DNA of 64,000 nucleotides from Crossaster papposus (taxonomy: Eukaryota; Echinodermata; Asteroidea; Velatida; Solasteridae): NCBI GenBank assembly GCA_037893245.1, contig JBAIAA010000738.1:186001-250000 (forward strand), written 5' to 3'. A program made the translations under genes and the position numbers. This document shows, one piece after another, positions 1 to 48,660 of the stretch (positions are counted from its first letter, which is position 1; each line of letters opens with the position of its first letter). The notes beneath the pieces are model-generated. The model saw only the letters and a program-made list of their open reading frames with translations, searched no databases and was not told the origin of the DNA.

Positions 1-55
1 TTATTTGTGGGCGGGGATTGTGTGCACAAACCTATGGCGAATTTGAAACGCGTGT

Positions 56-67
56 GTTAACGTTAAC
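56..67 (+). other. 12-bp palindrome GTTAACGTTAAC in divergent-type monomers
   Basis: The GTTAACGTTAAC of CATTTT-type monomers is a perfect 12-bp palindrome. It is shortened to GTTAACGTTAAAA or GTTAACGTTACAA in sister types, and to GTTAACGTTATAA in all domain-2 copies, which keep only the 6-bp GTTAAC and the 8-bp TAACGTTA. The adjacent ATTTTC-A-GAAAAT is a further 13-bp odd palindrome present in most copies. Confidence 0.8.
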
Positions 68-102
68 ATTTTCAGAAAATCGAAATAAAATACTAACAAA
101 GC

Positions 103-1694
103 ATGCCCCGGGTCAAATTGCTAATTTTGCCATTCCTGGAGGCCCCCCTATATCTCCTAACACCCAGCCCTTTCCAGGGGCATGCTTTCCTTCATGCCCT
201 TATTTGTGGGCGGGGATTGTGTGCACAAACCTATGGCGAATTTGAAACGCGTGTGTTAACGTTACAATTTTCAGAAAATCGAAATAAAATAGTAACAAAG
301 CATGCCCCGGGTCAAATTGCTAATGTTGCCATTCCTGGAGGCCCCCCTCTATCTCCTAACACCCAGCGCCTTCCCGGGGCATGCTTTCCTTCATGCCCTT
401 ATTTGTGGGCGGGGATTGTGTGCACAAACCTATGGCGAATTTGAAACGCGTGTGTTAACGTTAACATTTTCAGAAAATCGAAATAAAATACTAACAAAGC
501 ATGCCCCGGGTCAAATTGCTAATGTTGCCATTCCTGGAGGCCCCCCTCTATCTCCTAACACCCAGCTCCTTCCCGGGGCATGCTTTCCTTCATGCCCTTA
601 TTTGTGGGCGGGGATTGTGTGCACAAACCTATGGCGAATTTGAAACGCGTGTGTTAACGTTAACATTTTCAGAAAATCGAAATAAAATACTAACAAAGCA
701 TGCCCCGGGTCAAATTGCTAATTTTGCCATTCCTGGAGGCCCCCCTCTATCTCCTAACACCCAGCCCCTTCCCGGGACATGCTTTCCTTCATGCCCTTAT
801 TTGTGGGCGGGGATTGTGTGCACAAACCTATGGCGAATTTGAAACGCGTGTGTTAACGTTAACATTTTCAGAAAATCGAAATAAAATACTAACAAAGCAT
901 GCCCCGGGTCAAATTGCTAATTTTGCCATTCCTGGAGGCCCCCCTATATCTCCTAACACCCAGCCCCTTCCAGGGGCATGCTTTCCTTCATGCCCTTATT
1001 TGTGGGCGGGGATTGTGTGCACAAACCTATGGCGAATTTGAAACTCGTGTGTTAACGTTAATATTTTCAGAAAATCGAAATAAAATAGTAACAAAGCATG
1101 CCCCGGGTCAAATTGCTAATGTTGCCATTCCTGGAGGCCCCCCTCTATCTCCTAACACCCAGCGCCTTCCCGGGGCATGCTTTCCTTCATGCCCTTATTT
1201 GTGGGCGGGGATTGTGTGCACAAACCTATGGCGAATTTGAAACGCGTGTGTTAACGTTAACATTTTCAGAAAATCGAAATAAAATACTAACAAAGCATGC
1301 CCCGGGTCAAATTGCTAATGTTGCCATTCCTGGAGGCCCCCCTCTATCTCCTAACACCCAGCCCCTTCCCGGGGCATGCTTTCCTTCATGCCCTTATTTG
1401 TGGGCGGGGATTGTGTGCACAAACCTATGGCGAATTTGAAACGCGTGTGTTAACGTTAAAATTTTCAGAAAATCGAAATAAAATACTAACAAAGCATGCC
1501 CCGGGTCAAATTGCTAATTTTGCCATTCCTGGAGGCCCCCCTCTATCTCCTAACACCCAGCCCCTTCCCGGGGCATGCTTTCCTTCATGCCCTTATTTGT
1601 GGGCGGGGATTGTGTGCACAAACCTATGGCGAATTTGAAACGCGTGTGTTAACGTTAAAATTGTCAGAAAATCGAAATAAAATAGTAACAAAGC
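103..1694 (+). repeat. 4-mer higher-order repeat, 796-bp period, two copies
   Basis: Monomers beginning at 103, 302, 501 and 700 are echoed by those at 899, 1,098, 1,297 and 1,496. The first of each set has CCTATATCTCC, a CCAGGGG instead of CCCGGGG, and AAATAGTAAC. The second has TAATGTTGCC and CAGCGCCTTCC. The third has TAATGTTGCC again, and the fourth reverts to TAATTTTGCC. The copies are not identical: GTTACAATTTT versus GTTAATATTTT, and CAGCTCC versus CAGCCCC. This is therefore an older or partly converted duplication than the ones further right. Confidence 0.75.
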
Positions 1695-2618
1695 ATGCCC
1701 CGGGTCAAATTGCTAATTTTGCCATTCCTGGAGGCCCCCCTCTATCTCCTAAGACCCTGCCCCTTCCCGTGGCATGCTTTCCTTCATGCCCTTATTTGTG
1801 GGCGGGGATTGTGTGCACAAACCTATGGCGAATTTGAAACGCGTGTGTTTACGTTACAATTTTTAGAAAATCGAAATAAAATACTAACAAAGCATGCCCC
1901 GGGTCAAATTTCTAATTTTGCCATTCCTGGAGGCCCCCCTCTATCTCCTAACACCCAGCCCCTTCCCGGGGCATGCTTTCCTTCATGCCCTTATTTGTGG
2001 GCGGGGATTGTGTGCACAAACCTATGGGGAATTTGAAACGCGTGTGTTAACGTTACAATTTTCAGAGAATCGAAATAAAATACTAACAAAGCATGCCCCG
2101 GGTCAAATTGCTAATTTTGCCATTCCTGGAGGCCCCCCTCTATCTCCTAACACCCAGCCCCTTCCCGGAGCATGCTTTCCTTCATGCCCTTATTTGTGGG
2201 CGGGGATTGTGTGCACAAACCTATGGCGAATTTGAAACGCGTGTGTTAACGTTAACATTTTCAGAAAATCGAAATAAAATACTAACAAAGCATGCCCCGG
2301 GTCAAATTGCTAATGTTGCCATTCCTGGAGGCCCCCCTCTATCTCCTAACACCCAGCCCCTTCCCGGGGCATGCTTTCCTTCATGCCCTTATTTGTGGGC
2401 GGGGATTGTGTGCACAAACCTATGGCGAATTTGAAACGCGTGTGTTAACGTTAAAATTTTCAGAAAATCGAAATAAAATACTAACAAAGCATGCCCAGGG
2501 TCAAATTGCTAATTTTGCCATTCCTGGAGGCCCCCCTATATCTCCTAACACCCAGCCCCTTCCAGGGGCATGCTTTCCTTCATGCCCTTATTTGTGGGCG
2601 GGGATTGTGTGCACAAAC
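1695..2618 (+). repeat. Divergent monomers without clear higher-order partner
   Basis: There are about four and a half monomers. The one starting at 1,695 is among the most diverged intact copies: CTAAGACCCTGCCCC, CCCGTGGCATGC (breaking the inverted repeat), GTTTACGTTACAATTTTTAG. The next (1,894) has AAATTTCTAAT and TATGGGGAATTT. The monomer at 2,491 again shows CCTATATCTCC with CCAGGGG, linking it to the left-end 4-mer lineage. No gene or other element is visible. Confidence 0.8.
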
Positions 2619-4209
2619 CTATGGCGAATTTGAAACGTGTGTGTTAACGTTAACATTTTCAGAAAATCGAAATAAAATAGTAACAAAGCATGCCCCGGGT
2701 CAAATTGCTAATTTTGCCATTCCTGGAGGCCCCCCTATCTCCTAACACCCAGCGCCTTCCCAAGGCATGCTTTCCTTCATGCCCTTATTTGTGGGCGGGG
2801 ATTGTGTGCACAAACCTATGGCGAATTTGAAACGCGTGTGTTAACGTTACAATTTTCAGAAAATCGAAATAAAATACTAACAAAGCATGCCCCGGGTCAA
2901 ATTGCTAATTTTGCCATTCCTGGAGGCCCCCCCTATCTCCTAACACCCAGCCCCTTCTCGGGGCATGCTTTCCTTCATGCCCTTATTTGTGGGCGGGAAT
3001 TGTGTGCACAAACCTATGGCGAATTTGAAACGCGTGTGTTAACGTTAAAATTTTCAGAAAATCGAAATAAAATACTAACAAAGCATGCCCCAGGTCAAAT
3101 TGCTAATTTTGCCATTCCTGGAGGCCCCCCTCTATCTCCTAACACCCAGCCCCTTCCCGGGGCATGCTTTCCTTCATGCCCTTATTTGTGGGCGGGGATT
3201 GTGTGCACAAACCTATGGCGAATTTGAAACGCGTGTGTTAACGTTAACATTTTCAGAAAATCAAAATAAAATACTAACAAAGCATGCCCCGGGTCACATT
3301 TTGCTAATTTTGCCATTCCTGGAGGCCCCCCTCTATCTCCTAACACCCAGCCCCTTCCCGGGGCATGCTTTCCTTCATGCCCTTATTTGTGGGCGGGGAT
3401 TGTGTGCACAAACCTATGGCGAAATTGAAACGCTTGTGTTAACGTTAACATTTTCAGAAAATCGAAATAAAATACTAACAAAGCATGCCCCGGGTCAAAT
3501 TGCTAATTTTGCCATTCCTGGAGGCCCCCCTCTATCTCCTAACACCCAGCCCCTTCCCGGGGCATGCTTTCCTTCATGCCCTTATTTGTGGGCGGGGATT
3601 GTGTGCACAAACCTATGGCGAATTTGAAACGCGTGTGTTAACGTTACAATTTTCAGAAAATCGAAATAAAATACTAACAAAGCATGCCCCGGTACAAATT
3701 GCTAATTTTGCTATTCCTGGAGGCCCCCCTCTATCTCCTAACACCCAGCCCCTTCCCGGGGCATGCTTTCCTTCTTGCCCTTATTTGTGGGCGGGGACTG
3801 TGTGCACAAACCTATGGCGAATTTGAAACGCGTGTGTTAACGTTAAAATTTTCAGAGAATCGAAATAAAATACTAATAAAGCATGCCCCGGGTCAAATTG
3901 CTAATTTTGCCATTCCTGGAGGCCCCCCTCTATCTCCTAACACCCAGCCCCTTCCCGGGGCATGCTTTCCTTCATGCCCTTATTTGTGGGCGGGGATTGT
4001 GTGCACAAACCTATGGCGAATTTGAAACGCGTGTGTTAACGTTAACATTTTCAGAAAATCGAAATAAAATACTAACAAAGCATGCCCCGGGTCAAATTGC
4101 TAATTTTGCCATTCCTGGAGGCCCCCCTCTATCTCCTAATACCCAGCCCCTGCCCGGGGCATGCTTTCCTTCATGCCCTTATTTGTGGGCGGGGATTGTG
4201 TGCACAAAG
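2619..4209 (+). repeat. 8-mer segmental duplication, copy 1 (1,591 bp)
   Basis: This block of eight monomers recurs immediately downstream at an offset of exactly 1,591 bp. The period is one short of 8x199 because the unit contains a 2-bp deletion (CCCCCCTATCTCC near 2,728), a net 1-bp deletion (C7 TATCTCC near 2,930) and a 2-bp insertion (GGGTCACATTTTGC near 3,297). All of these reappear in copy 2. So do single-base variants such as GGGCGGGAATTG, ATCAAAATAAA, CCGGTACAAATT, TTCTTGCCC, GGGGACTG and ACTAATAAAG. The left limit is set by the mismatch 2,618 C versus 4,209 G. Confidence 0.93.
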
Positions 4210-5800
4210 CTATGGCGAATTTGAAACGTGTGTGTTAACGTTAACATTTTCAGAAAATCGAAATAAAATAGTAACAAAGCATGCCCCGGGTCAAATTGCT
4301 AATTTTGCCATTCCTGGAGGCCCCCCTATCTCCTAACACCCAGCGCCTTCCCAAGGCATGCTTTCCTTCATGCCCTTATTTGTGGGCGGGGATTGTGTGC
4401 ACAAACCTATGGCGAATTTGAAACGCGTGTGTTAACGTTACAATTTTCAGAAAATCGAAATAAAATACTAACAAAGCATGCCCCGGGTCAAATTGCTAAT
4501 TTTGCCATTCCTGGAGGCCCCCCCTATCTCCTAACACCCAGCCCCTTCTCGGGGCATGCTTTCCTTCATGCCCTTATTTGTGGGCGGGAATTGTGTGCAC
4601 AAACCTATGGCGAATTTGAAACGCGTGTGTTAACGTTAAAATTTTCAGAAAATCGAAATAAAATACTAACAAAGCATGCCCCAGGTCAAATTGCTAATTT
4701 TGCCATTCCTGGAGGCCCCCCTCTATCTCCTAACACCCAGCCCCTTCCCGGGGCATGCTTTCCTTCATGCCCTTATTTGTGGGCGGGGATTGTGTGCACA
4801 AACCTATGGCGAATTTGAAACGCGTGTGTTAACGTTAACATTTTCAGAAAATCAAAATAAAATACTAACAAAGCATGCCCCGGGTCACATTTTGCTAATT
4901 TTGCCATTCCTGGAGGCCCCCCTCTATCTCCTAACACCCAGCCCCTTCCCGGGGCATGCTTTCCTTCATGCCCTTATTTGTGGGCGGGGATTGTGTGCAC
5001 AAACCTATGGCGAAATTGAAACGCTTGTGTTAACGTTAACATTTTCAGAAAATCGAAATAAAATACTAACAAAGCATGCCCCGGGTCAAATTGCTAATTT
5101 TGCCATTCCTGGAGGCCCCCCTCTATCTCCTAACACCCAGCCCCTTCCCGGGGCATGCTTTCCTTCATGCCCTTATTTGTGGGCGGGGATTGTGTGCACA
5201 AACCTATGGCGAATTTGAAACGCGTGTGTTAACGTTACAATTTTCAGAAAATCGAAATAAAATACTAACAAAGCATGCCCCGGTACAAATTGCTAATTTT
5301 GCTATTCCTGGAGGCCCCCCTCTATCTCCTAACACCCAGCCCCTTCCCGGGGCATGCTTTCCTTCTTGCCCTTATTTGTGGGCGGGGACTGTGTGCACAA
5401 ACCTATGGCGAATTTGAAACGCGTGTGTTAACGTTAAAATTTTCAGAGAATCGAAATAAAATACTAATAAAGCATGCCCCGGGTCAAATTGCTAATTTTG
5501 CCATTCCTGGAGGCCCCCCTCTATCTCCTAACACCCAGCCCCTTCCCGGGGCATGCTTTCCTTCATGCCCTTATTTGTGGGCGGGGATTGTGTGCACAAA
5601 CCTATGGCGAATTTGAAACGCGTGTGTTAACGTTAACATTTTCAGAAAATCGAAATAAAATACTAACAAAGCATGCCCCGGGTCAAATTGCTAATTTTGC
5701 CATTCCTGGAGGCCCCCCTCTATCTCCTAATACCCAGCCCCTGCCCGGGGCATGCTTTCCTTCATGCCCTTATTTGTGGGCGGGGATTGTGTGCACAAAG
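4210..5800 (+). repeat. 8-mer segmental duplication, copy 2 (1,591 bp)
   Basis: This is the second copy of the eight-monomer block. Identity at offset 1,591 continues to 5,819, where GAAACGCG differs from GAAACGTG at 4,229, giving about 1.6 kb of apparently perfect identity. Every private variant of copy 1 that I checked is present. The lack of differences, in a domain where neighbouring monomers differ at several sites, points to a recent unequal exchange or replication-slippage event in units of eight monomers. Confidence 0.93.
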
Positions 5801-23569: not shown

Positions 23570-23968
23570 CATGCCCCGGGTCAAATTGCTAATTTTGCCA
23601 TTCCTGGAGGCCCCCCTCTATCTCCTAACACCCAGCCCCTTCCCGGGGCATGCTTTCCTTCATGCCCTTATTTGTGGGCGGGGATTGTGTGCACAAACCT
23701 ATGGCGATTTTGAAAGGCGTGTGTTAACGTTAACATTTTCCGAAAATCGAAATAAAATACTAACAAAGCATGCCCCGGGTCAAATTGCTAATTTTGCCAT
23801 TCCTGGAGGCCCCCCTCTATCTCCTAACACGCAGCCCCTTCCCGGGGCATGCTTTCCTTCATGCCCTTATTTGTGGGCGGGGATTGTGTGCACAAACCTA
23901 TGGCGAATTTCAAACGCGTGTGTTAACGTTATAATTTTCAGAAAATCGAAATAAAATACTAACAAAGC
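23570..23968 (+). repeat. Two transitional monomers at the domain boundary
   Basis: The monomer starting at 23,571 still belongs to the divergent type (GCGATTTTGAAAGG, GTTAACATTTTCC), and its predecessor has AAAATAGAAATA. The next monomer (23,770) carries private changes ACACGCAGCC (23,831) and AATTTCAAACG (23,911), then ends with the first GTTATAATTTT of the window. From 23,969 onward copies are uniform. The switch takes place within one monomer, with no gradient. The change at 23,911 removes the TGA of AATTTGAAAC, so the local open frame runs on to 23,954. Confidence 0.9.
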
Positions 23969-24054
23969 ATGCCCCGGGTCAAATTGCTAATTTTGCCATT
24001 CCTGGAGGCCCCCCTCTATCTCCTAACACCCAGCCCCTTCCCGGGGCATGCTTT
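23964..24054 (+). other. Perfect 15-bp inverted repeat in each monomer (dyad, 61-nt loop)
   Basis: AAAGCATGCCCCGGG (23,964-23,978) and its exact reverse complement CCCGGGGCATGCTTT (24,040-24,054) flank a 61-nt C-rich loop. Each arm contains GCATGC and CCCGGG, themselves palindromes. Because the array is tandem, the right arm of one monomer can also pair with the left arm of the next across 108 nt. The arms are intact in nearly all domain-2 copies. In domain 1 they are sometimes broken (CCAGGGG, CCAAGGC, CCCGAGG, CCCGTGG, GGGGCACGC, GCATTCCCC). Any role in cruciform formation or protein binding is inference. Confidence 0.9.
24002..24042 (-). other. Four-G-tract cluster on the minus strand (possible G-quadruplex or i-motif)
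   Basis: Read on the minus strand, the region between GGAGG and the right arm gives GGG, GGGG, GGG and a run of six G, separated by 2, 2 and 14 nt. The plus strand has the matching C-tracts. The last loop is longer than the usual 7-nt limit of canonical quadruplex rules, so this is only a candidate long-loop quadruplex. The first tract overlaps the CCCGGG of the inverted repeat and would compete with it. The C-tracts are conserved in domain 2 and vary by one base in a few domain-1 copies. Confidence 0.55.
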
Positions 24055-24065
24055 CCTTCATGCCC
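24044..24065 (+). other. 7-bp hairpin GGGCATG / CATGCCC with 8-nt loop
   Basis: GGGCATG (24,044-24,050) and CATGCCC (24,059-24,065) are exact reverse complements around the loop CTTTCCTT. The left arm overlaps the right arm of the 15-bp inverted repeat, so the two structures are mutually exclusive. The motif repeats once per monomer. There is no U-tract or adjacent gene that would make it a transcription terminator. Confidence 0.8.
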
Positions 24066-25587
24066 TTATTTGTGGGCGGGGATTGTGTGCACAAACCTAT
24101 GGCGAATTTGAAACGCGTGTGTTAACGTTATAATTTTCAGAAAATCGAAATAAAATACTAACAAAGCATGCCCCGGGTCAAATTGCTAATTTTGCCATTC
24201 CTGGAGGCCCCCCTCTATCTCCTAACACCCAGCCCCTTCCCGGGGCATGCTTTCCTTCATGCCCTTATTTGTGGGCGGGGATTGTGTGCACAAACCTATG
24301 GCGAATTTGAAACGCGTGTGTTAACGTTATAATTTTCAGAAAATCGAAATAAAATACTAACAAAGCATGCCCCGGGTCAAATTGCTAATTTTGCCATTCC
24401 TGGAGGCCCCCCTCTATCTCCTAACACCCAGCCCCTTCCCGGGGCATGCTTTCCTTCATGCCCTTATTTGTGGGCGGGGATTGTGTGCACAAACCTATGG
24501 CGAATTTGAAACGCGTGTGTTAACGTTATAATTTTCAGAAAATCGAAATAAAATACTAACAAAGCATGCCCCGGGTCAAATTGCTAATTTTGCCATTCCT
24601 GGAGGCCCCCCTCTATCTCCTAACACCCAGCCCCTTCCCGGGGCATGCTTTCCTTCATGCCCTTATTTGTGGGCGGGGATTGTGTGCACAAACCTATGGC
24701 GAATTTGAAACGCGTGTGTTAACGTTATAATTTTCAGAAAATCGAAATAAAATACTAACAAAGCATGCCCCGGGTCAAATTGCTAATTTTGCCATTCCTG
24801 GAGGCCCCCCTCTATCTCCTAACACCCAGCCCCTTCCCGGGGCATGCTTTCCTTCATGCCCTTATTTGTGGGCGGGGATTGTGTGCACAAACCTATGGCG
24901 AATTTGAAACGCGTGTGTTAACGTTATAATTTTCAGAAAATCGAAATAAAATACTAACAAAGCATGCCCCGGGTCAAATTGCTAATTTTGCCATTCCTGG
25001 AGGCCCCCCTCTATCTCCTAACACCCAGCCCCTTCCCGGGGCATGCTTTCCTTCATGCCCTTATTTGTGGGCGGGGATTGTGTGCACAAACCTATGGCGA
25101 ATTTGAAACGCGTGTGTTAACGTTATAATTTTCAGAAAATCGAAATAAAATACTAACAAAGCATGCCCCGGGTCAAATTGCTAATTTTGCCATTCCTGGA
25201 GGCCCCCCTCTATCTCCTAACACCCAGCCCCTTCCCGGGGCATGCTTTCCTTCATGCCCTTATTTGTGGGCGGGGATTGTGTGCACAAACCTATGGCGAA
25301 TTTGAAACGCGTGTGTTAACGTTATAATTTTCAGAAAATCGAAATAAAATACTAACAAAGCATGCCCCGGGTCAAATTGCTAATTTTGCCATTCCTGGAG
25401 GCCCCCCTCTATCTCCTAACACCCAGCCCCTTCCCGGGGCATGCTTTCCTTCATGCCCTTATTTGTGGGCGGGGATTGTGTGCACAAACCTATGGCGAAT
25501 TTGAAACGCGTGTGTTAACGTTATAATTTTCAGAAAATCGAAATAAAATACTAACAAAGCATGCCCCGGGTCAAATTGCTAATTTTG

Positions 25588-39400: not shown

Positions 39401-39821
39401 GGGGATTGTGTGCACAAACCTATGGCGAATTTGAAACGCGTGTGTTAACGTTATAATTTTCAGAAAATCGAAATAAAATACTAACAAAGCATGCCCCGGG
39501 TCAAATTGCTAATTTTGCCATTCCTGGAGGCCCCCCTCTATCTCCTAACACCCAGCCCCTTCCCGGGGCATGCTTTCCTTCATGCCCTTATTTGTGGGCG
39601 GGGATTGTGTGCACAAACCTATGGCGAATTTGAAACGCGTGTGTTAACGTTATAATTTTCAGAAAATCGAAATAAAATACTAACAAAGCATGCCCCGGGT
39701 CAAATTGCTAATTTTGCCATTCCTGGAGGCCCCCCTCTATCTCCTAACACCCAGCCCCTTCCCGGGGCATGCTTTCCTTCATGCCCTTATTTGTGGGCGG
39801 GGATTGTGTGCACAAACCTAT

Positions 39822-40020
39822 GGCGAATTTGTGTTAACGTTATAATTTTCAGAAAATCGAAATAAAATACTAACAAAGCATGCCCCGGGTCAAATTGCTA
39901 ATTTTGCCATTCCTGGAGGCCCCCCTCTATTTCCTAACACCCAGCCCCTTCCCGGGCATGCTTTCCTTCATGCCCTTATTTGTGGGCGGGGATTGTGTGC
40001 ACAAACCTATGGCGATGGCG
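39822..40020 (+). other. Damaged monomer: 9-bp deletion, 1-bp deletion, substitution and 6-bp duplication
   Basis: GCGAATTT is joined directly to GTGTTAAC at 39,830/39,831, with loss of GAAACGCGT. In the following copy CTATTTCC replaces CTATCTCC (39,931), CCCGGGCATG has lost one G (39,951-39,960), and TATGGCGATGGCG shows a 6-bp tandem duplication (40,009-40,020). The monomer starts shift accordingly (39,880 then 40,084, a 204-bp step). Four changes in one monomer of an otherwise perfect array suggest a patched or low-quality segment, though a local repair scar is possible. Confidence 0.85.
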
Positions 40021-42777
40021 AATTTGAAACGCGTGTGTTAACGTTATAATTTTCAGAAAATCGAAATAAAATACTAACAAAGCATGCCCCGGGTCAAATT
40101 GCTAATTTTGCCATTCCTGGAGGCCCCCCTCTATCTCCTAACACCCAGCCCCTTCCCGGGGCATGCTTTCCTTCATGCCCTTATTTGTGGGCGGGGATTG
40201 TGTGCACAAACCTATGGCGAATTTGAAACGCGTGTGTTAACGTTATAATTTTCAGAAAATCGAAATAAAATACTAACAAAGCATGCCCCGGGTCAAATTG
40301 CTAATTTTGCCATTCCTGGAGGCCCCCCTCTATCTCCTAACACCCAGCCCCTTCCCGGGGCATGCTTTCCTTCATGCCCTTATTTGTGGGCGGGGATTGT
40401 GTGCACAAACCTATGGCGAATTTGAAACGCGTGTGTTAACGTTATAATTTTCAGAAAATCGAAATAAAATACTAACAAAGCATGCCCCGGGTCAAATTGC
40501 TAATTTTGCCATTCCTGGAGGCCCCCCTCTATCTCCTAACACCCAGCCCCTTCCCGGGGCATGCTTTCCTTCATGCCCTTATTTGTGGGCGGGGATTGTG
40601 TGCACAAACCTATGGCGAATTTGAAACGCGTGTGTTAACGTTATAATTTTCAGAAAATCGAAATAAAATACTAACAAAGCATGCCCCGGGTCAAATTGCT
40701 AATTTTGCCATTCCTGGAGGCCCCCCTCTATCTCCTAACACCCAGCCCCTTCCCGGGGCATGCTTTCCTTCATGCCCTTATTTGTGGGCGGGGATTGTGT
40801 GCACAAACCTATGGCGAATTTGAAACGCGTGTGTTAACGTTATAATTTTCAGAAAATCGAAATAAAATACTAACAAAGCATGCCCCGGGTCAAATTGCTA
40901 ATTTTGCCATTCCTGGAGGCCCCCCTCTATCTCCTAACACCCAGCCCCTTCCCGGGGCATGCTTTCCTTCATGCCCTTATTTGTGGGCGGGGATTGTGTG
41001 CACAAACCTATGGCGAATTTGAAACGCGTGTGTTAACGTTATAATTTTCAGAAAATCGAAATAAAATACTAACAAAGCATGCCCCGGGTCAAATTGCTAA
41101 TTTTGCCATTCCTGGAGGCCCCCCTCTATCTCCTAACACCCAGCCCCTTCCCGGGGCATGCTTTCCTTCATGCCCTTATTTGTGGGCGGGGATTGTGTGC
41201 ACAAACCTATGGCGAATTTGAAACGCGTGTGTTAACGTTATAATTTTCAGAAAATCGAAATAAAATACTAACAAAGCATGCCCCGGGTCAAATTGCTAAT
41301 TTTGCCATTCCTGGAGGCCCCCCTCTATCTCCTAACACCCAGCCCCTTCCCGGGGCATGCTTTCCTTCATGCCCTTATTTGTGGGCGGGGATTGTGTGCA
41401 CAAACCTATGGCGAATTTGAAACGCGTGTGTTAACGTTATAATTTTCAGAAAATCGAAATAAAATACTAACAAAGCATGCCCCGGGTCAAATTGCTAATT
41501 TTGCCATTCCTGGAGGCCCCCCTCTATCTCCTAACACCCAGCCCCTTCCCGGGGCATGCTTTCCTTCATGCCCTTATTTGTGGGCGGGGATTGTGTGCAC
41601 AAACCTATGGCGAATTTGAAACGCGTGTGTTAACGTTATAATTTTCAGAAAATCGAAATAAAATACTAACAAAGCATGCCCCGGGTCAAATTGCTAATTT
41701 TGCCATTCCTGGAGGCCCCCCTCTATCTCCTAACACCCAGCCCCTTCCCGGGGCATGCTTTCCTTCATGCCCTTATTTGTGGGCGGGGATTGTGTGCACA
41801 AACCTATGGCGAATTTGAAACGCGTGTGTTAACGTTATAATTTTCAGAAAATCGAAATAAAATACTAACAAAGCATGCCCCGGGTCAAATTGCTAATTTT
41901 GCCATTCCTGGAGGCCCCCCTCTATCTCCTAACACCCAGCCCCTTCCCGGGGCATGCTTTCCTTCATGCCCTTATTTGTGGGCGGGGATTGTGTGCACAA
42001 ACCTATGGCGAATTTGAAACGCGTGTGTTAACGTTATAATTTTCAGAAAATCGAAATAAAATACTAACAAAGCATGCCCCGGGTCAAATTGCTAATTTTG
42101 CCATTCCTGGAGGCCCCCCTCTATCTCCTAACACCCAGCCCCTTCCCGGGGCATGCTTTCCTTCATGCCCTTATTTGTGGGCGGGGATTGTGTGCACAAA
42201 CCTATGGCGAATTTGAAACGCGTGTGTTAACGTTATAATTTTCAGAAAATCGAAATAAAATACTAACAAAGCATGCCCCGGGTCAAATTGCTAATTTTGC
42301 CATTCCTGGAGGCCCCCCTCTATCTCCTAACACCCAGCCCCTTCCCGGGGCATGCTTTCCTTCATGCCCTTATTTGTGGGCGGGGATTGTGTGCACAAAC
42401 CTATGGCGAATTTGAAACGCGTGTGTTAACGTTATAATTTTCAGAAAATCGAAATAAAATACTAACAAAGCATGCCCCGGGTCAAATTGCTAATTTTGCC
42501 ATTCCTGGAGGCCCCCCTCTATCTCCTAACACCCAGCCCCTTCCCGGGGCATGCTTTCCTTCATGCCCTTATTTGTGGGCGGGGATTGTGTGCACAAACC
42601 TATGGCGAATTTGAAACGCGTGTGTTAACGTTATAATTTTCAGAAAATCGAAATAAAATACTAACAAAGCATGCCCCGGGTCAAATTGCTAATTTTGCCA
42701 TTCCTGGAGGCCCCCCTCTATCTCCTAACACCCAGCCCCTTCCCGGGGCATGCTTTCCTTCATGCCCTTATTTGTGG

Positions 42778-42983
42778 GCGTGGCGAATTGAAACGGGTGT
42801 AAACGTTATAATTTTCAGAAAATCGAAATATAATTTTCAGAAAATCGAAATAAAATATACTAACAAAGCATGCCCCGGGTCAAATTGCTAATTTTGCCAT
42901 TCCTGGAGGCCCCCCTCTATCTCCTAACACCCAGCCCCTTCCCGGGGCATGCTTTCCTTCATGCCCTTATTTGTGGGCGGGGT
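42778..42983 (+). other. Rearranged monomer with compensating deletion and 22-bp tandem duplication
   Basis: GTGGGCG is joined to TGGCGAATTG at 42,780/42,781, losing about 21 bp including TGTGCACA. Next come small changes (AATTGAAACGGGTGTAAACG), a 22-bp tandem duplication starting TAATTTTCAG (to about 42,852), and AAATATAC with 2 extra bases. Despite these changes the step between monomer starts is exactly 199 (42,671 to 42,870). The following monomer has lost an A in GGGGTTGTG (near 42,983). Confidence 0.85.
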
Positions 42984-44420
42984 TGTGTGCACAAACCTAT
43001 GGCGAATTTGAAACGCGTGTGTTAACGTTATAATTTTCAGAAAATCGAAATAAAATACTAACAAAGCATGCCCCGGGTCAAATTGCTAATTTTGCCATTC
43101 CTGGAGGCCCCCCTCTATCTCCTAACACCCAGCCCCTTCCCGGGGCATGCTTTCCTTCATGCCCTTATTTGTGGGCGGGGATTGTGTGCACAAACCTATG
43201 GCGAATTTGAAACGCGTGTGTTAACGTTATAATTTTCAGAAAATCGAAATAAAATACTAACAAAGCATGCCCCGGGTCAAATTGCTAATTTTGCCATTCC
43301 TGGAGGCCCCCCTCTATCTCCTAACACCCAGCCCCTTCCCGGGGCATGCTTTCCTTCATGCCCTTATTTGTGGGCGGGGATTGTGTGCACAAACCTATGG
43401 CGAATTTGAAACGCGTGTGTTAACGTTATAATTTTCAGAAAATCGAAATAAAATACTAACAAAGCATGCCCCGGGTCAAATTGCTAATTTTGCCATTCCT
43501 GGAGGCCCCCCTCTATCTCCTAACACCCAGCCCCTTCCCGGGGCATGCTTTCCTTCATGCCCTTATTTGTGGGCGGGGATTGTGTGCACAAACCTATGGC
43601 GAATTTGAAACGCGTGTGTTAACGTTATAATTTTCAGAAAATCGAAATAAAATACTAACAAAGCATGCCCCGGGTCAAATTGCTAATTTTGCCATTCCTG
43701 GAGGCCCCCCTCTATCTCCTAACACCCAGCCCCTTCCCGGGGCATGCTTTCCTTCATGCCCTTATTTGTGGGCGGGGATTGTGTGCACAAACCTATGGCG
43801 AATTTGAAACGCGTGTGTTAACGTTATAATTTTCAGAAAATCGAAATAAAATACTAACAAAGCATGCCCCGGGTCAAATTGCTAATTTTGCCATTCCTGG
43901 AGGCCCCCCTCTATCTCCTAACACCCAGCCCCTTCCCGGGGCATGCTTTCCTTCATGCCCTTATTTGTGGGCGGGGATTGTGTGCACAAACCTATGGCGA
44001 ATTTGAAACGCGTGTGTTAACGTTATAATTTTCAGAAAATCGAAATAAAATACTAACAAAGCATGCCCCGGGTCAAATTGCTAATTTTGCCATTCCTGGA
44101 GGCCCCCCTCTATCTCCTAACACCCAGCCCCTTCCCGGGGCATGCTTTCCTTCATGCCCTTATTTGTGGGCGGGGATTGTGTGCACAAACCTATGGCGAA
44201 TTTGAAACGCGTGTGTTAACGTTATAATTTTCAGAAAATCGAAATAAAATACTAACAAAGCATGCCCCGGGTCAAATTGCTAATTTTGCCATTCCTGGAG
44301 GCCCCCCTCTATCTCCTAACACCCAGCCCCTTCCCGGGGCATGCTTTCCTTCATGCCCTTATTTGTGGGCGGGGATTGTGTGCACAAACCTATGGCGAAT
44401 TTGAAACGCGTGTGTTAACG

Positions 44421-44435
44421 TTATAATATAATTTT
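44421..44435 (+). other. 5-bp insertion in one monomer
   Basis: GTTATAATATAATTTTC replaces GTTATAATTTTC, a 5-bp duplication within the AT-rich diagnostic segment. It makes this monomer 204 bp (44,262 to 44,466). Flanking copies are perfect. Confidence 0.9.
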
Positions 44436-46906
44436 CAGAAAATCGAAATAAAATACTAACAAAGCATGCCCCGGGTCAAATTGCTAATTTTGCCATTCCT
44501 GGAGGCCCCCCTCTATCTCCTAACACCCAGCCCCTTCCCGGGGCATGCTTTCCTTCATGCCCTTATTTGTGGGCGGGGATTGTGTGCACAAACCTATGGC
44601 GAATTTGAAACGCGTGTGTTAACGTTATAATTTTCAGAAAATCGAAATAAAATACTAACAAAGCATGCCCCGGGTCAAATTGCTAATTTTGCCATTCCTG
44701 GAGGCCCCCCTCTATCTCCTAACACCCAGCCCCTTCCCGGGGCATGCTTTCCTTCATGCCCTTATTTGTGGGCGGGGATTGTGTGCACAAACCTATGGCG
44801 AATTTGAAACGCGTGTGTTAACGTTATAATTTTCAGAAAATCGAAATAAAATACTAACAAAGCATGCCCCGGGTCAAATTGCTAATTTTGCCATTCCTGG
44901 AGGCCCCCCTCTATCTCCTAACACCCAGCCCCTTCCCGGGGCATGCTTTCCTTCATGCCCTTATTTGTGGGCGGGGATTGTGTGCACAAACCTATGGCGA
45001 ATTTGAAACGCGTGTGTTAACGTTATAATTTTCAGAAAATCGAAATAAAATACTAACAAAGCATGCCCCGGGTCAAATTGCTAATTTTGCCATTCCTGGA
45101 GGCCCCCCTCTATCTCCTAACACCCAGCCCCTTCCCGGGGCATGCTTTCCTTCATGCCCTTATTTGTGGGCGGGGATTGTGTGCACAAACCTATGGCGAA
45201 TTTGAAACGCGTGTGTTAACGTTATAATTTTCAGAAAATCGAAATAAAATACTAACAAAGCATGCCCCGGGTCAAATTGCTAATTTTGCCATTCCTGGAG
45301 GCCCCCCTCTATCTCCTAACACCCAGCCCCTTCCCGGGGCATGCTTTCCTTCATGCCCTTATTTGTGGGCGGGGATTGTGTGCACAAACCTATGGCGAAT
45401 TTGAAACGCGTGTGTTAACGTTATAATTTTCAGAAAATCGAAATAAAATACTAACAAAGCATGCCCCGGGTCAAATTGCTAATTTTGCCATTCCTGGAGG
45501 CCCCCCTCTATCTCCTAACACCCAGCCCCTTCCCGGGGCATGCTTTCCTTCATGCCCTTATTTGTGGGCGGGGATTGTGTGCACAAACCTATGGCGAATT
45601 TGAAACGCGTGTGTTAACGTTATAATTTTCAGAAAATCGAAATAAAATACTAACAAAGCATGCCCCGGGTCAAATTGCTAATTTTGCCATTCCTGGAGGC
45701 CCCCCTCTATCTCCTAACACCCAGCCCCTTCCCGGGGCATGCTTTCCTTCATGCCCTTATTTGTGGGCGGGGATTGTGTGCACAAACCTATGGCGAATTT
45801 GAAACGCGTGTGTTAACGTTATAATTTTCAGAAAATCGAAATAAAATACTAACAAAGCATGCCCCGGGTCAAATTGCTAATTTTGCCATTCCTGGAGGCC
45901 CCCCTCTATCTCCTAACACCCAGCCCCTTCCCGGGGCATGCTTTCCTTCATGCCCTTATTTGTGGGCGGGGATTGTGTGCACAAACCTATGGCGAATTTG
46001 AAACGCGTGTGTTAACGTTATAATTTTCAGAAAATCGAAATAAAATACTAACAAAGCATGCCCCGGGTCAAATTGCTAATTTTGCCATTCCTGGAGGCCC
46101 CCCTCTATCTCCTAACACCCAGCCCCTTCCCGGGGCATGCTTTCCTTCATGCCCTTATTTGTGGGCGGGGATTGTGTGCACAAACCTATGGCGAATTTGA
46201 AACGCGTGTGTTAACGTTATAATTTTCAGAAAATCGAAATAAAATACTAACAAAGCATGCCCCGGGTCAAATTGCTAATTTTGCCATTCCTGGAGGCCCC
46301 CCTCTATCTCCTAACACCCAGCCCCTTCCCGGGGCATGCTTTCCTTCATGCCCTTATTTGTGGGCGGGGATTGTGTGCACAAACCTATGGCGAATTTGAA
46401 ACGCGTGTGTTAACGTTATAATTTTCAGAAAATCGAAATAAAATACTAACAAAGCATGCCCCGGGTCAAATTGCTAATTTTGCCATTCCTGGAGGCCCCC
46501 CTCTATCTCCTAACACCCAGCCCCTTCCCGGGGCATGCTTTCCTTCATGCCCTTATTTGTGGGCGGGGATTGTGTGCACAAACCTATGGCGAATTTGAAA
46601 CGCGTGTGTTAACGTTATAATTTTCAGAAAATCGAAATAAAATACTAACAAAGCATGCCCCGGGTCAAATTGCTAATTTTGCCATTCCTGGAGGCCCCCC
46701 TCTATCTCCTAACACCCAGCCCCTTCCCGGGGCATGCTTTCCTTCATGCCCTTATTTGTGGGCGGGGATTGTGTGCACAAACCTATGGCGAATTTGAAAC
46801 GCGTGTGTTAACGTTATAATTTTCAGAAAATCGAAATAAAATACTAACAAAGCATGCCCCGGGTCAAATTGCTAATTTTGCCATTCCTGGAGGCCCCCCT
46901 CTATCT

Positions 46907-48010
46907 GGCGGGGGATTGTGTCACAACCTTTGGGCGCAATTTGAAACGCGTGGGTTAACGTTATAATTTTCAGAAAATCGAAATAAAATACTAACAAAGC
47001 CTCCCCGGTCAAATTGGCTAATTTTGCCATTCCTGGAGCCCCCTCTACTCCCTAACACCCACCCCTTCCCGTGTGCAGCTTTCCTTCATTCCCTTGATTT
47101 GTGGGCGGGGTTTGTTGTGCACAAACCTATGGCTAATTGTGGAAACGCGTTGGGTTATCGTTTATAAATTTATAAATCGAATATAAGAATACTAACAAAG
47201 CATGCCAGGGGTCAAATTGCTTATTTTTGCCATTCCTGTGAGGCCAGCCCCTCTTATCTCCTAACACCCAGCCCCTTCCCGGGCATGCGTTCATTCTTGA
47301 CCCTTATTTGTGGGCGGGGATTGTGTGCACAAACCTATGCGAATTTGAAACGCGTGGTGTTACGTTTATAATTTTTCAGAAAATCGAAATAAAATACTAA
47401 CAAAGCCATGGCCCCGGGTCATATTGCTATTTTGCCATTGCCTGGAGGCCCCCCTCTATCTACCTAACACCCAGCTCCCCCTGCCCACCCCCTCGTCCGC
47501 CTTCCGGGGCATGCTTTCATTCATGCCCTTATTTGTGGGGCGGGCGTATTGTGGTGCACAAACCTTTGTGGCGAATTTGAAACGCGTGTGTTAACGTTAT
47601 AGATTTTCAGAAAATCGAAAATAAAATTACTAACATAGCATGCCCCCGGGTCAAATTGCTAATGTTGCCATTTCTGGTGGCCCCCTCTATCTCCTAACAC
47701 CCCTGCCCCTTCCCCGTGGCATGGCTTTCCTTCATGGCCCTTATTTGTGGGCCCGGGGTGGATTGTGTGCACAAACAGTTGGCGGAATTTGAAACGCGTG
47801 TGTTAACTTATAATTTTCAGAAAATCGAAATAAAATACTAACAAGGCAGGCCCCGGTTCATATTGCTAATTTTGCCATTCCTGGAGGTCCCCCCCTCTAT
47901 TCTCCTAACATCCCAGCCCTTCCCGGGGTCTTGCTTTCCTTCATGCCCGTATTTGGTGGCGGGGATTGTGTGCAAAACCCTATGGCGAATTTGAAACGCG
48001 TGTTGTTATC
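46907..48010 (+). other. Degraded block of about six monomers, probable uncorrected sequence
   Basis: At 46,906 a clean monomer is cut at CTATCT and joined to GGCGGGGGATT, skipping about 53 bp. For the next 1.1 kb every monomer carries scattered single-base insertions, deletions and substitutions, for example AAAGCCTCCCCGGTC, GCCATGGCCCCGGG, TTATAGATTTTC, GCATGGCTTTCC and AAGGCAGGCCCCGG. A C-rich insertion of about 28 bp lies near 47,474-47,502. The sequence returns to perfect consensus at GTTATAATTTT (48,011). Monomer spacing inside varies from about 145 to 233 bp. The changes are not shared between neighbours, and all belong to the domain-2 type. This pattern fits unpolished long-read sequence at an assembly join. 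Confidence 0.85.
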
Positions 48011-48660
48011 GTTATAATTTTCAGAAAATCGAAATAAAATACTAACAAAGCATGCCCCGGGTCAAATTGCTAATTTTGCCATTCCTGGAGGCCCCCCTCT
48101 ATCTCCTAACACCCAGCCCCTTCCCGGGGCATGCTTTCCTTCATGCCCTTATTTGTGGGCGGGGATTGTGTGCACAAACCTATGGCGAATTTGAAACGCG
48201 TGTGTTAACGTTATAATTTTCAGAAAATCGAAATAAAATACTAACAAAGCATGCCCCGGGTCAAATTGCTAATTTTGCCATTCCTGGAGGCCCCCCTCTA
48301 TCTCCTAACACCCAGCCCCTTCCCGGGGCATGCTTTCCTTCATGCCCTTATTTGTGGGCGGGGATTGTGTGCACAAACCTATGGCGAATTTGAAACGCGT
48401 GTGTTAACGTTATAATTTTCAGAAAATCGAAATAAAATACTAACAAAGCATGCCCCGGGTCAAATTGCTAATTTTGCCATTCCTGGAGGCCCCCCTCTAT
48501 CTCCTAACACCCAGCCCCTTCCCGGGGCATGCTTTCCTTCATGCCCTTATTTGTGGGCGGGGATTGTGTGCACAAACCTATGGCGAATTTGAAACGCGTG
48601 TGTTAACGTTATAATTTTCAGAAAATCGAAATAAAATACTAACAAAGCATGCCCCGGGTC

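Follow-up and report, generated by a model that had tools for sequence, protein, structure and literature searches.

In human centromeres, alpha-satellite DNA is described as the product of layered expansion, with the young and most homogeneous array lying beside older, divergent monomers, and the same review argues for break-induced replication as an agent in centromeric satellites (PMC12321929). In plants, the centromere satellites CentBd and CentBs of Brachypodium are presented as locally homogenised, with local bursts of repeats (PMC10910784). To judge from these two sources, core-and-flank layering of satellites is best described in primates and in some plants (PMC12321929, PMC10910784); here we report it in an echinoderm. 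The likeness to the human system, as that review outlines it (PMC12321929), lies in an apparently young homogeneous array that adjoins older divergent monomers, whereas on the contig studied here one divergent flank is seen (left) and the other end of the array meets a probably mobile element in this assembly. The Brachypodium satellites, as summarised in their source, are comparable for their local bursts with homogenisation (PMC10910784), but in the present case one edge is common to six places of the assembly. What sets the case slightly apart is this sharing by six places, behind which the copy numbers vary widely; otherwise it is an unusually clear example of ordinary satellite behaviour and a good representative of a known kind. 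Six versions of a single edge, backed by anything from four to hundreds of uniform monomers, lend themselves to comparison, and in this way the limits to homogenisation of a satellite become measurable.

The window, i.e. the whole stretch of DNA analysed, comprises 64,000 bases (C738:186,001-250,000) of contig C738, which is 487,276 bases long and belongs to an assembly of 1.02 Gb in 1,841 contigs, from which all the evidence comes. The entire window (1-64,000) was reported by TRF as one 199-bp tandem array, and its wrap-around alignment to a single 199-bp unit gave 322 uninterrupted pieces. The reference unit for this alignment, against which every monomer of the window was scored, is the monomer at 24,066-24,264. 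Unit positions 65-66 are hereafter called the tail, which in the uniform type reads TA (GTTATAATTTT). Rfam gave no match for positions 1-3,000 of the window, and none of the titles and abstract openings listed in a literature search described this satellite, which is weak evidence of absence. The uniform-type unit contains a 15-base perfect inverted repeat (97-111, AAAGCATGCCCCGGG; 173-187, CCCGGGGCATGCTTT) that, as a matter of speculation, could favour fork stalling or fold-back.

Alpha satellite is a primate repeat with a unit of about 171 bp, which carries the CENP-B box in a subset of monomers. Here, in contrast, the unit measures 199 bp and no CENP-B box was found in it, the best match being 6 of 9 bases against the CENP-B core. 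In addition, COX1 on the mitochondrial contig (C1841) reads sensibly when AAA is translated as asparagine, as judged by eye against conserved residues after five codes had been tried; this code is used by echinoderms and some flatworms, and its use here points to an echinoderm as the probable source. An identity with alpha satellite was consequently rejected on these three grounds, and the comparison with alpha satellite arrays drawn in the preliminary description of this locus is at most an analogy.

The left part of the window (1-23,866, + strand by wrap-around alignment) is a divergent satellite domain of 120 monomers (monomers 0-119), with a mean pairwise identity of 97.63%, 67 distinct sequences and 77 variable columns. 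Its tails are mixed (AC in 63 monomers, AA in 45, CA in 11, AT in one) and never TA, so that the variation at several sites and the mixture of tails noticed beforehand are borne out. Local higher-order repeats occur in this domain: identity is raised at offsets of 18 and 13 monomers, and an 8-monomer block is present in two successive copies (monomers 13-20 and 21-28; 2,588-5,769, + strand), as seen by alignment and by offset-8 identity. The last divergent monomer (23,668-23,866, + strand) bears A40T, C48G, T65A, A66C, A73C and C163G, the last of which is the mark of the shared edge discussed below.

On the right, the first uniform-type monomer (23,867-24,065, + strand), which carries G44C, also found on contig C521, is followed by a homogenised domain of mostly perfect monomers with tail TA (24,066-64,000, + strand), extending past the window. 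All 201 full monomers of the right domain (monomers 120-320) have the TA tail, including 12 damaged ones. The 189 clean monomers show a mean pairwise identity of 99.98%, with 5 distinct sequences and 4 variable columns; this figure drops the 12 monomers from damaged patches, and with them identity in the right domain is 99.23%. The proposal of about 200 nearly identical copies with one tail thus holds for the tail and for the clean monomers, and needs amending for the 12 that lie in error-like patches. The commonest bases of the two domains differ at positions 65-66 only. A homogeneous domain directly adjoins a divergent domain of the same family (99.98% versus 97.6%), as expected of a layered array.

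The switch itself is confined to 23,831-23,932 (+ strand, wrap-around alignment). The left type is last seen in C163G (23,831) and the right type first seen in T65 (23,932), with G44C in between at 23,911. This agrees with the abrupt change within one monomer near 23.93 kb that had been claimed. There is no inserted or deleted base at the join, and both domains keep the same 199-bp register. Identity in sliding windows of ten monomers rises sharply at monomer 120: it is 0.973-0.988 in windows starting at monomers 90-117 (the last of them reach across the edge) and 0.998-1.000 in those that start at monomers 120-144. The accompanying statement that there is no gradient was nearly right, save for a slight edge effect within the uniform domain: of its clean monomers, 3 among the first 34 bear substitutions versus none of the next 155 (Fisher p 0.005).

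Four places in the uniform domain, all on the + strand, look like errors. These are 39,787-40,180 (10 deleted bases and one substitution in one monomer, 6 inserted bases in the next), 42,768-43,164 (with a locally duplicated piece, by TRF and alignment), 44,359-44,562 (a monomer with five inserted bases) and 46,904-48,015 (between perfect monomers, ends approximate). The last patch holds 184 differences from the unit, counted over 46,740-48,240, of which 144 are bases gained or lost, a single damaged monomer accounting for about 40 of the latter; to us it has the look of read sequence that escaped correction, and not of evolutionary change. We guess that the assembly was built from HiFi reads.

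Genome-wide, the 31-base TA core occurs 17,289 times. Neighbouring monomers were counted by exact tails, using GTTATAATTTTCAG for TA and GTTAAMATTTTCAG for AM (tails AC and AA), which gave 16,839 TA-TA, 26,105 AM-AM, 54 AM-TA and 92 TA-AM pairs; monomers with a CA tail or with changes near the tail, such as the last divergent monomer of the window, go uncounted. Mixed neighbours thus make up 146 of 43,090 pairs versus about 20,549 expected in random order, and we conclude that near-complete segregation with abrupt switches is the norm across the genome, of which this place is one case. Segregation is incomplete on C166, which has 14 scattered TA monomers, and single divergent monomers stand inside TA on C521 and C497. 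Some TA domains (C666, C942 and C1365) contain more variants, or a 22-base insertion in repeating order. TA monomers with this insertion were seen at C942:59,001-61,400, C1365:68,401-70,800 and C497:205,942-206,162, those of the first two contigs being repeated in a higher-order arrangement.

The edge pattern, that is C163G followed by the TA tail, was found at six places on five contigs (C738, C521, C538, C239 and twice on C891, near 9 and 411 kb), and all six copies were read and compared. A join unique to C738 is therefore unlikely. The uniform run behind the edge is four monomers long at two places and longer at the other four, with at least ten TA monomers directly behind the edge at C521, C891:9k and C239. 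The flanks of the six copies align monomer by monomer, save for small gains and losses of monomers. Specifically, differences number 2 in 2,716 sites between C738 and C521, 6 in 2,372 between C538 and C891:411k, and 21 to 39 (up to 39 of 2,715) in each of the remaining 13 pairs. Across the six copies, 50 gap-free columns vary in the flank of about 1.9 kb versus 3 in the first 0.8 kb of TA (four monomers; Fisher p 2.5e-5), and when the 19 columns in which only the rearranged C239 copy differs are set aside, the comparison becomes 31 versus 3 (p 0.007); since the denominators were rounded, C891:411k lacks about 345 flank columns and the copies are related, these p values are indicative only.

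The closest pair, C521 and C738, shares G44C in the first uniform monomer and C129T in the ninth. On C521, TA monomers run from 11,188 to a point between 72,250 and 74,001, as judged beyond 15 kb by sampling, and a lone divergent monomer interrupts them near 14.6 kb. Variant-bearing monomers number 7 among the first 17 TA monomers of C521 versus 2 in the window, which means that uniformity near the edge differs between copies. The two contigs part at the other end, where C521 passes into another satellite and C738 into inverted TA. The second pair, C538 and C891:411k, has exactly four TA monomers, the fourth with T191C, followed by the same kinds of divergent monomers, so that divergent monomers flank the run on both sides. 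T191C on a TA monomer was found at six places. Three of these are C538 and two sites on C891, in short runs; the other three (C666, C942 and C1365) have it inside TA domains and not at a right edge. The idea that a long run arose from a four-copy run was tested through this private variant; given that C239, which has a long run, is the most distant copy, C538 and C891:411k may just as well have lost copies as the other places gained them.

The remaining two copies were sampled in parts. At C891:9k, TA monomers extend from 9,002 down to 7,001 and are present again at 1-600. On C239 they were read at four places: 117,001-119,076, about 103.2-104.5 kb, 60 kb and 0.1-10.5 kb. A single divergent monomer and a stretch of other, non-satellite DNA also occur there, around 102.5-103.4 kb. 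Four TA monomers lie to the left of the marker monomer on C239, showing that the edge can be disturbed.

Outside the window, C738 is known from 14 ten-kilobase stretches plus shorter samples. The stretches read to the left hold divergent-type monomers throughout, which lie on the - strand at 1-10, 30 and 40-50 kb and on the + strand from 80 kb; 10-base and 11-base satellites at 60 and 70 kb lie between the two. A 230-bp relative of the unit fills C738:1-10,000 (stretch L001). It belongs to the same family and can be aligned to the 199-bp unit, but is about 30 bases longer, has an AA or damaged tail and lies in - orientation; on visual inspection, a portion of the unit is present in inverted form among the additional bases (AGGAATGGCAAAATTAACAATTTGA). 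None of the 386 monomers scored in stretches L001-L008, this relative included, has the TA tail, and for this reason T at position 65 is probably the derived state, in a comparison confined to C738. Together with the contrast in identity, this supports the view of the preliminary description that a divergent domain lies beside a younger, homogenised one.

To the right, the uniform type continues past the window on C738, in + orientation to 275,708 and then, in the stretches read, in - orientation to about 365,250. Perfect pieces account for 44 of 51 in L009, 52 of 52 in L010 and 23 of 29 in L011 on the + side, and for 14 of 22 in L011, 47 of 51 in L012 and 50 of 51 in L013 on the - side; all seven 600-base samples between 332 and 360 kb are of the TA type. 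The strand flip lies at C738:275,708-275,709 (L011:5708-5709), with a two-base overlap, and its sequence has one match among the 84 loci examined. Variants on its two sides are not mirror images within the 4-6 kb read, and a missing-adapter palindrome was for that reason rejected as the origin of the fold-back.

In this assembly, the array of C738 stops near 365,250, where it abuts the end of a dispersed element (from about 365,247 onward; L041 and L042). This element starts with ACACACTAAAAACTAAAGGTGC, and its first 30 bases occur 14 times. Four other copies (C113, C579, C689 and C1302) are 100% identical (rounded) over 1,352-1,353 bases, which suggests that it was probably mobile recently. 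The longest stop-free frame in its first 2.8 kb is 105 codons.

We consider it probable that two domains of the same satellite family genuinely border on each other at this edge, and that the derived one is kept uniform by exchange among its own copies. According to this model, a derived monomer variant with tail TA would have expanded, and its copies would be kept uniform by exchange among themselves, through break-induced replication, unequal exchange or gene conversion, while the older neighbouring domain would stay outside this exchange and drift. The uniformity would then stem from ongoing exchange among TA copies, the edge would predate the present length of the array, and the uniform domain would resemble the young core of a layered centromeric array. 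Concerted evolution within the TA domain that does not cross the edge is the most economical reading of these data.

A stronger form of the same proposal, to which we give only a slender chance, is that the edge is a fixed and re-used limit of concerted evolution, set at a single defined point between two monomer variants and repeated in several parts of one genome, behind which the run may swell to hundreds of copies or shrink to four while the edge stays unmoved. If so, the six copies would serve as a natural series in which to look for whatever limits exchange between satellite copies.

An assembly artefact would mean that the uniform domain is a looped or over-collapsed TA consensus, and that a short TA run, such as the run of four on C538, served to join it to a divergent flank. 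The error-like patches that persist in the uniform domain fit this, as do the TA blocks at the ends of contigs C30, C239, C497 and C891, and from these two observations it follows that such arrays are not placed reliably. In addition, the longest error-free TA stretches (14,020 and 13,289 bases) are such that reads are indistinguishable there, and the 84 loci examined contain the strand flip of C738 a single time. On C738, the length of the array, its strand flip and the point where TA ends on the right are not secure, coming as they do from one assembly. The edge, however, was checked indirectly against the possibility of an assembly join, raised at the outset, and recurs with distinguishable flanks on C521, C538 and C239 and twice on C891, so that the same error would have been needed several times. 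TA runs of ten monomers or more directly behind it at three of these places, and G44C and C129T within the run common to C738 and C521, also speak against an artefact, and the unmirrored variants argue against a simple read-through hairpin at the strand flip. All together, we regard an artefact as improbable.

The preliminary description had suggested that the edge is the limit of a single recent amplification; in the strict form of this view, one template would have been copied some hundreds of times here and the other edges would be later duplicates. In its favour, almost no variation is seen in the uniform domain, and a strand flip with a two-base overlap would fit template switching. On the other hand, TA blocks exist on several other contigs, and the edge is common to six places whose flanks are up to 39 of 2,715 sites apart, two of them with only four uniform monomers behind it and four with more. 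Since the flanks of the edge copies have drifted apart while the TA units stayed the same, a single amplification fits poorly and seems very unlikely; the suggestion was only partly right, and as worded it is not supported. The joining by rearrangement, in this lineage, of two arrays of separate origin would account for the sharpness of the edge, but is hardly credible in view of the common 199-bp register with no indel at the join, the restriction of consensus differences to positions 65-66 and the six copies of the edge. We retain exchange confined to the TA copies as the probable explanation.

Other satellites were encountered on C521 from 74,001, at C891:743,001 and C891:500,001, at C239:300,001 and at C738:60,001 and 70,001. 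Their units are of about 30 bases (AATATGTAAAGGGAAAGAAGTGTGCATAAG), 11 bases (AATTCAATGCG and a relative) and 10 bases (CATCGGACAT). On the mitochondrial contig, four tRNA genes surround COX1. Finally, contig C8 (5,301,754 bases), which may be a bacterial symbiont or a contaminant, carries COX1-type frames without inner stops at 5,208,663 and at about 2,872,001-2,873,343.
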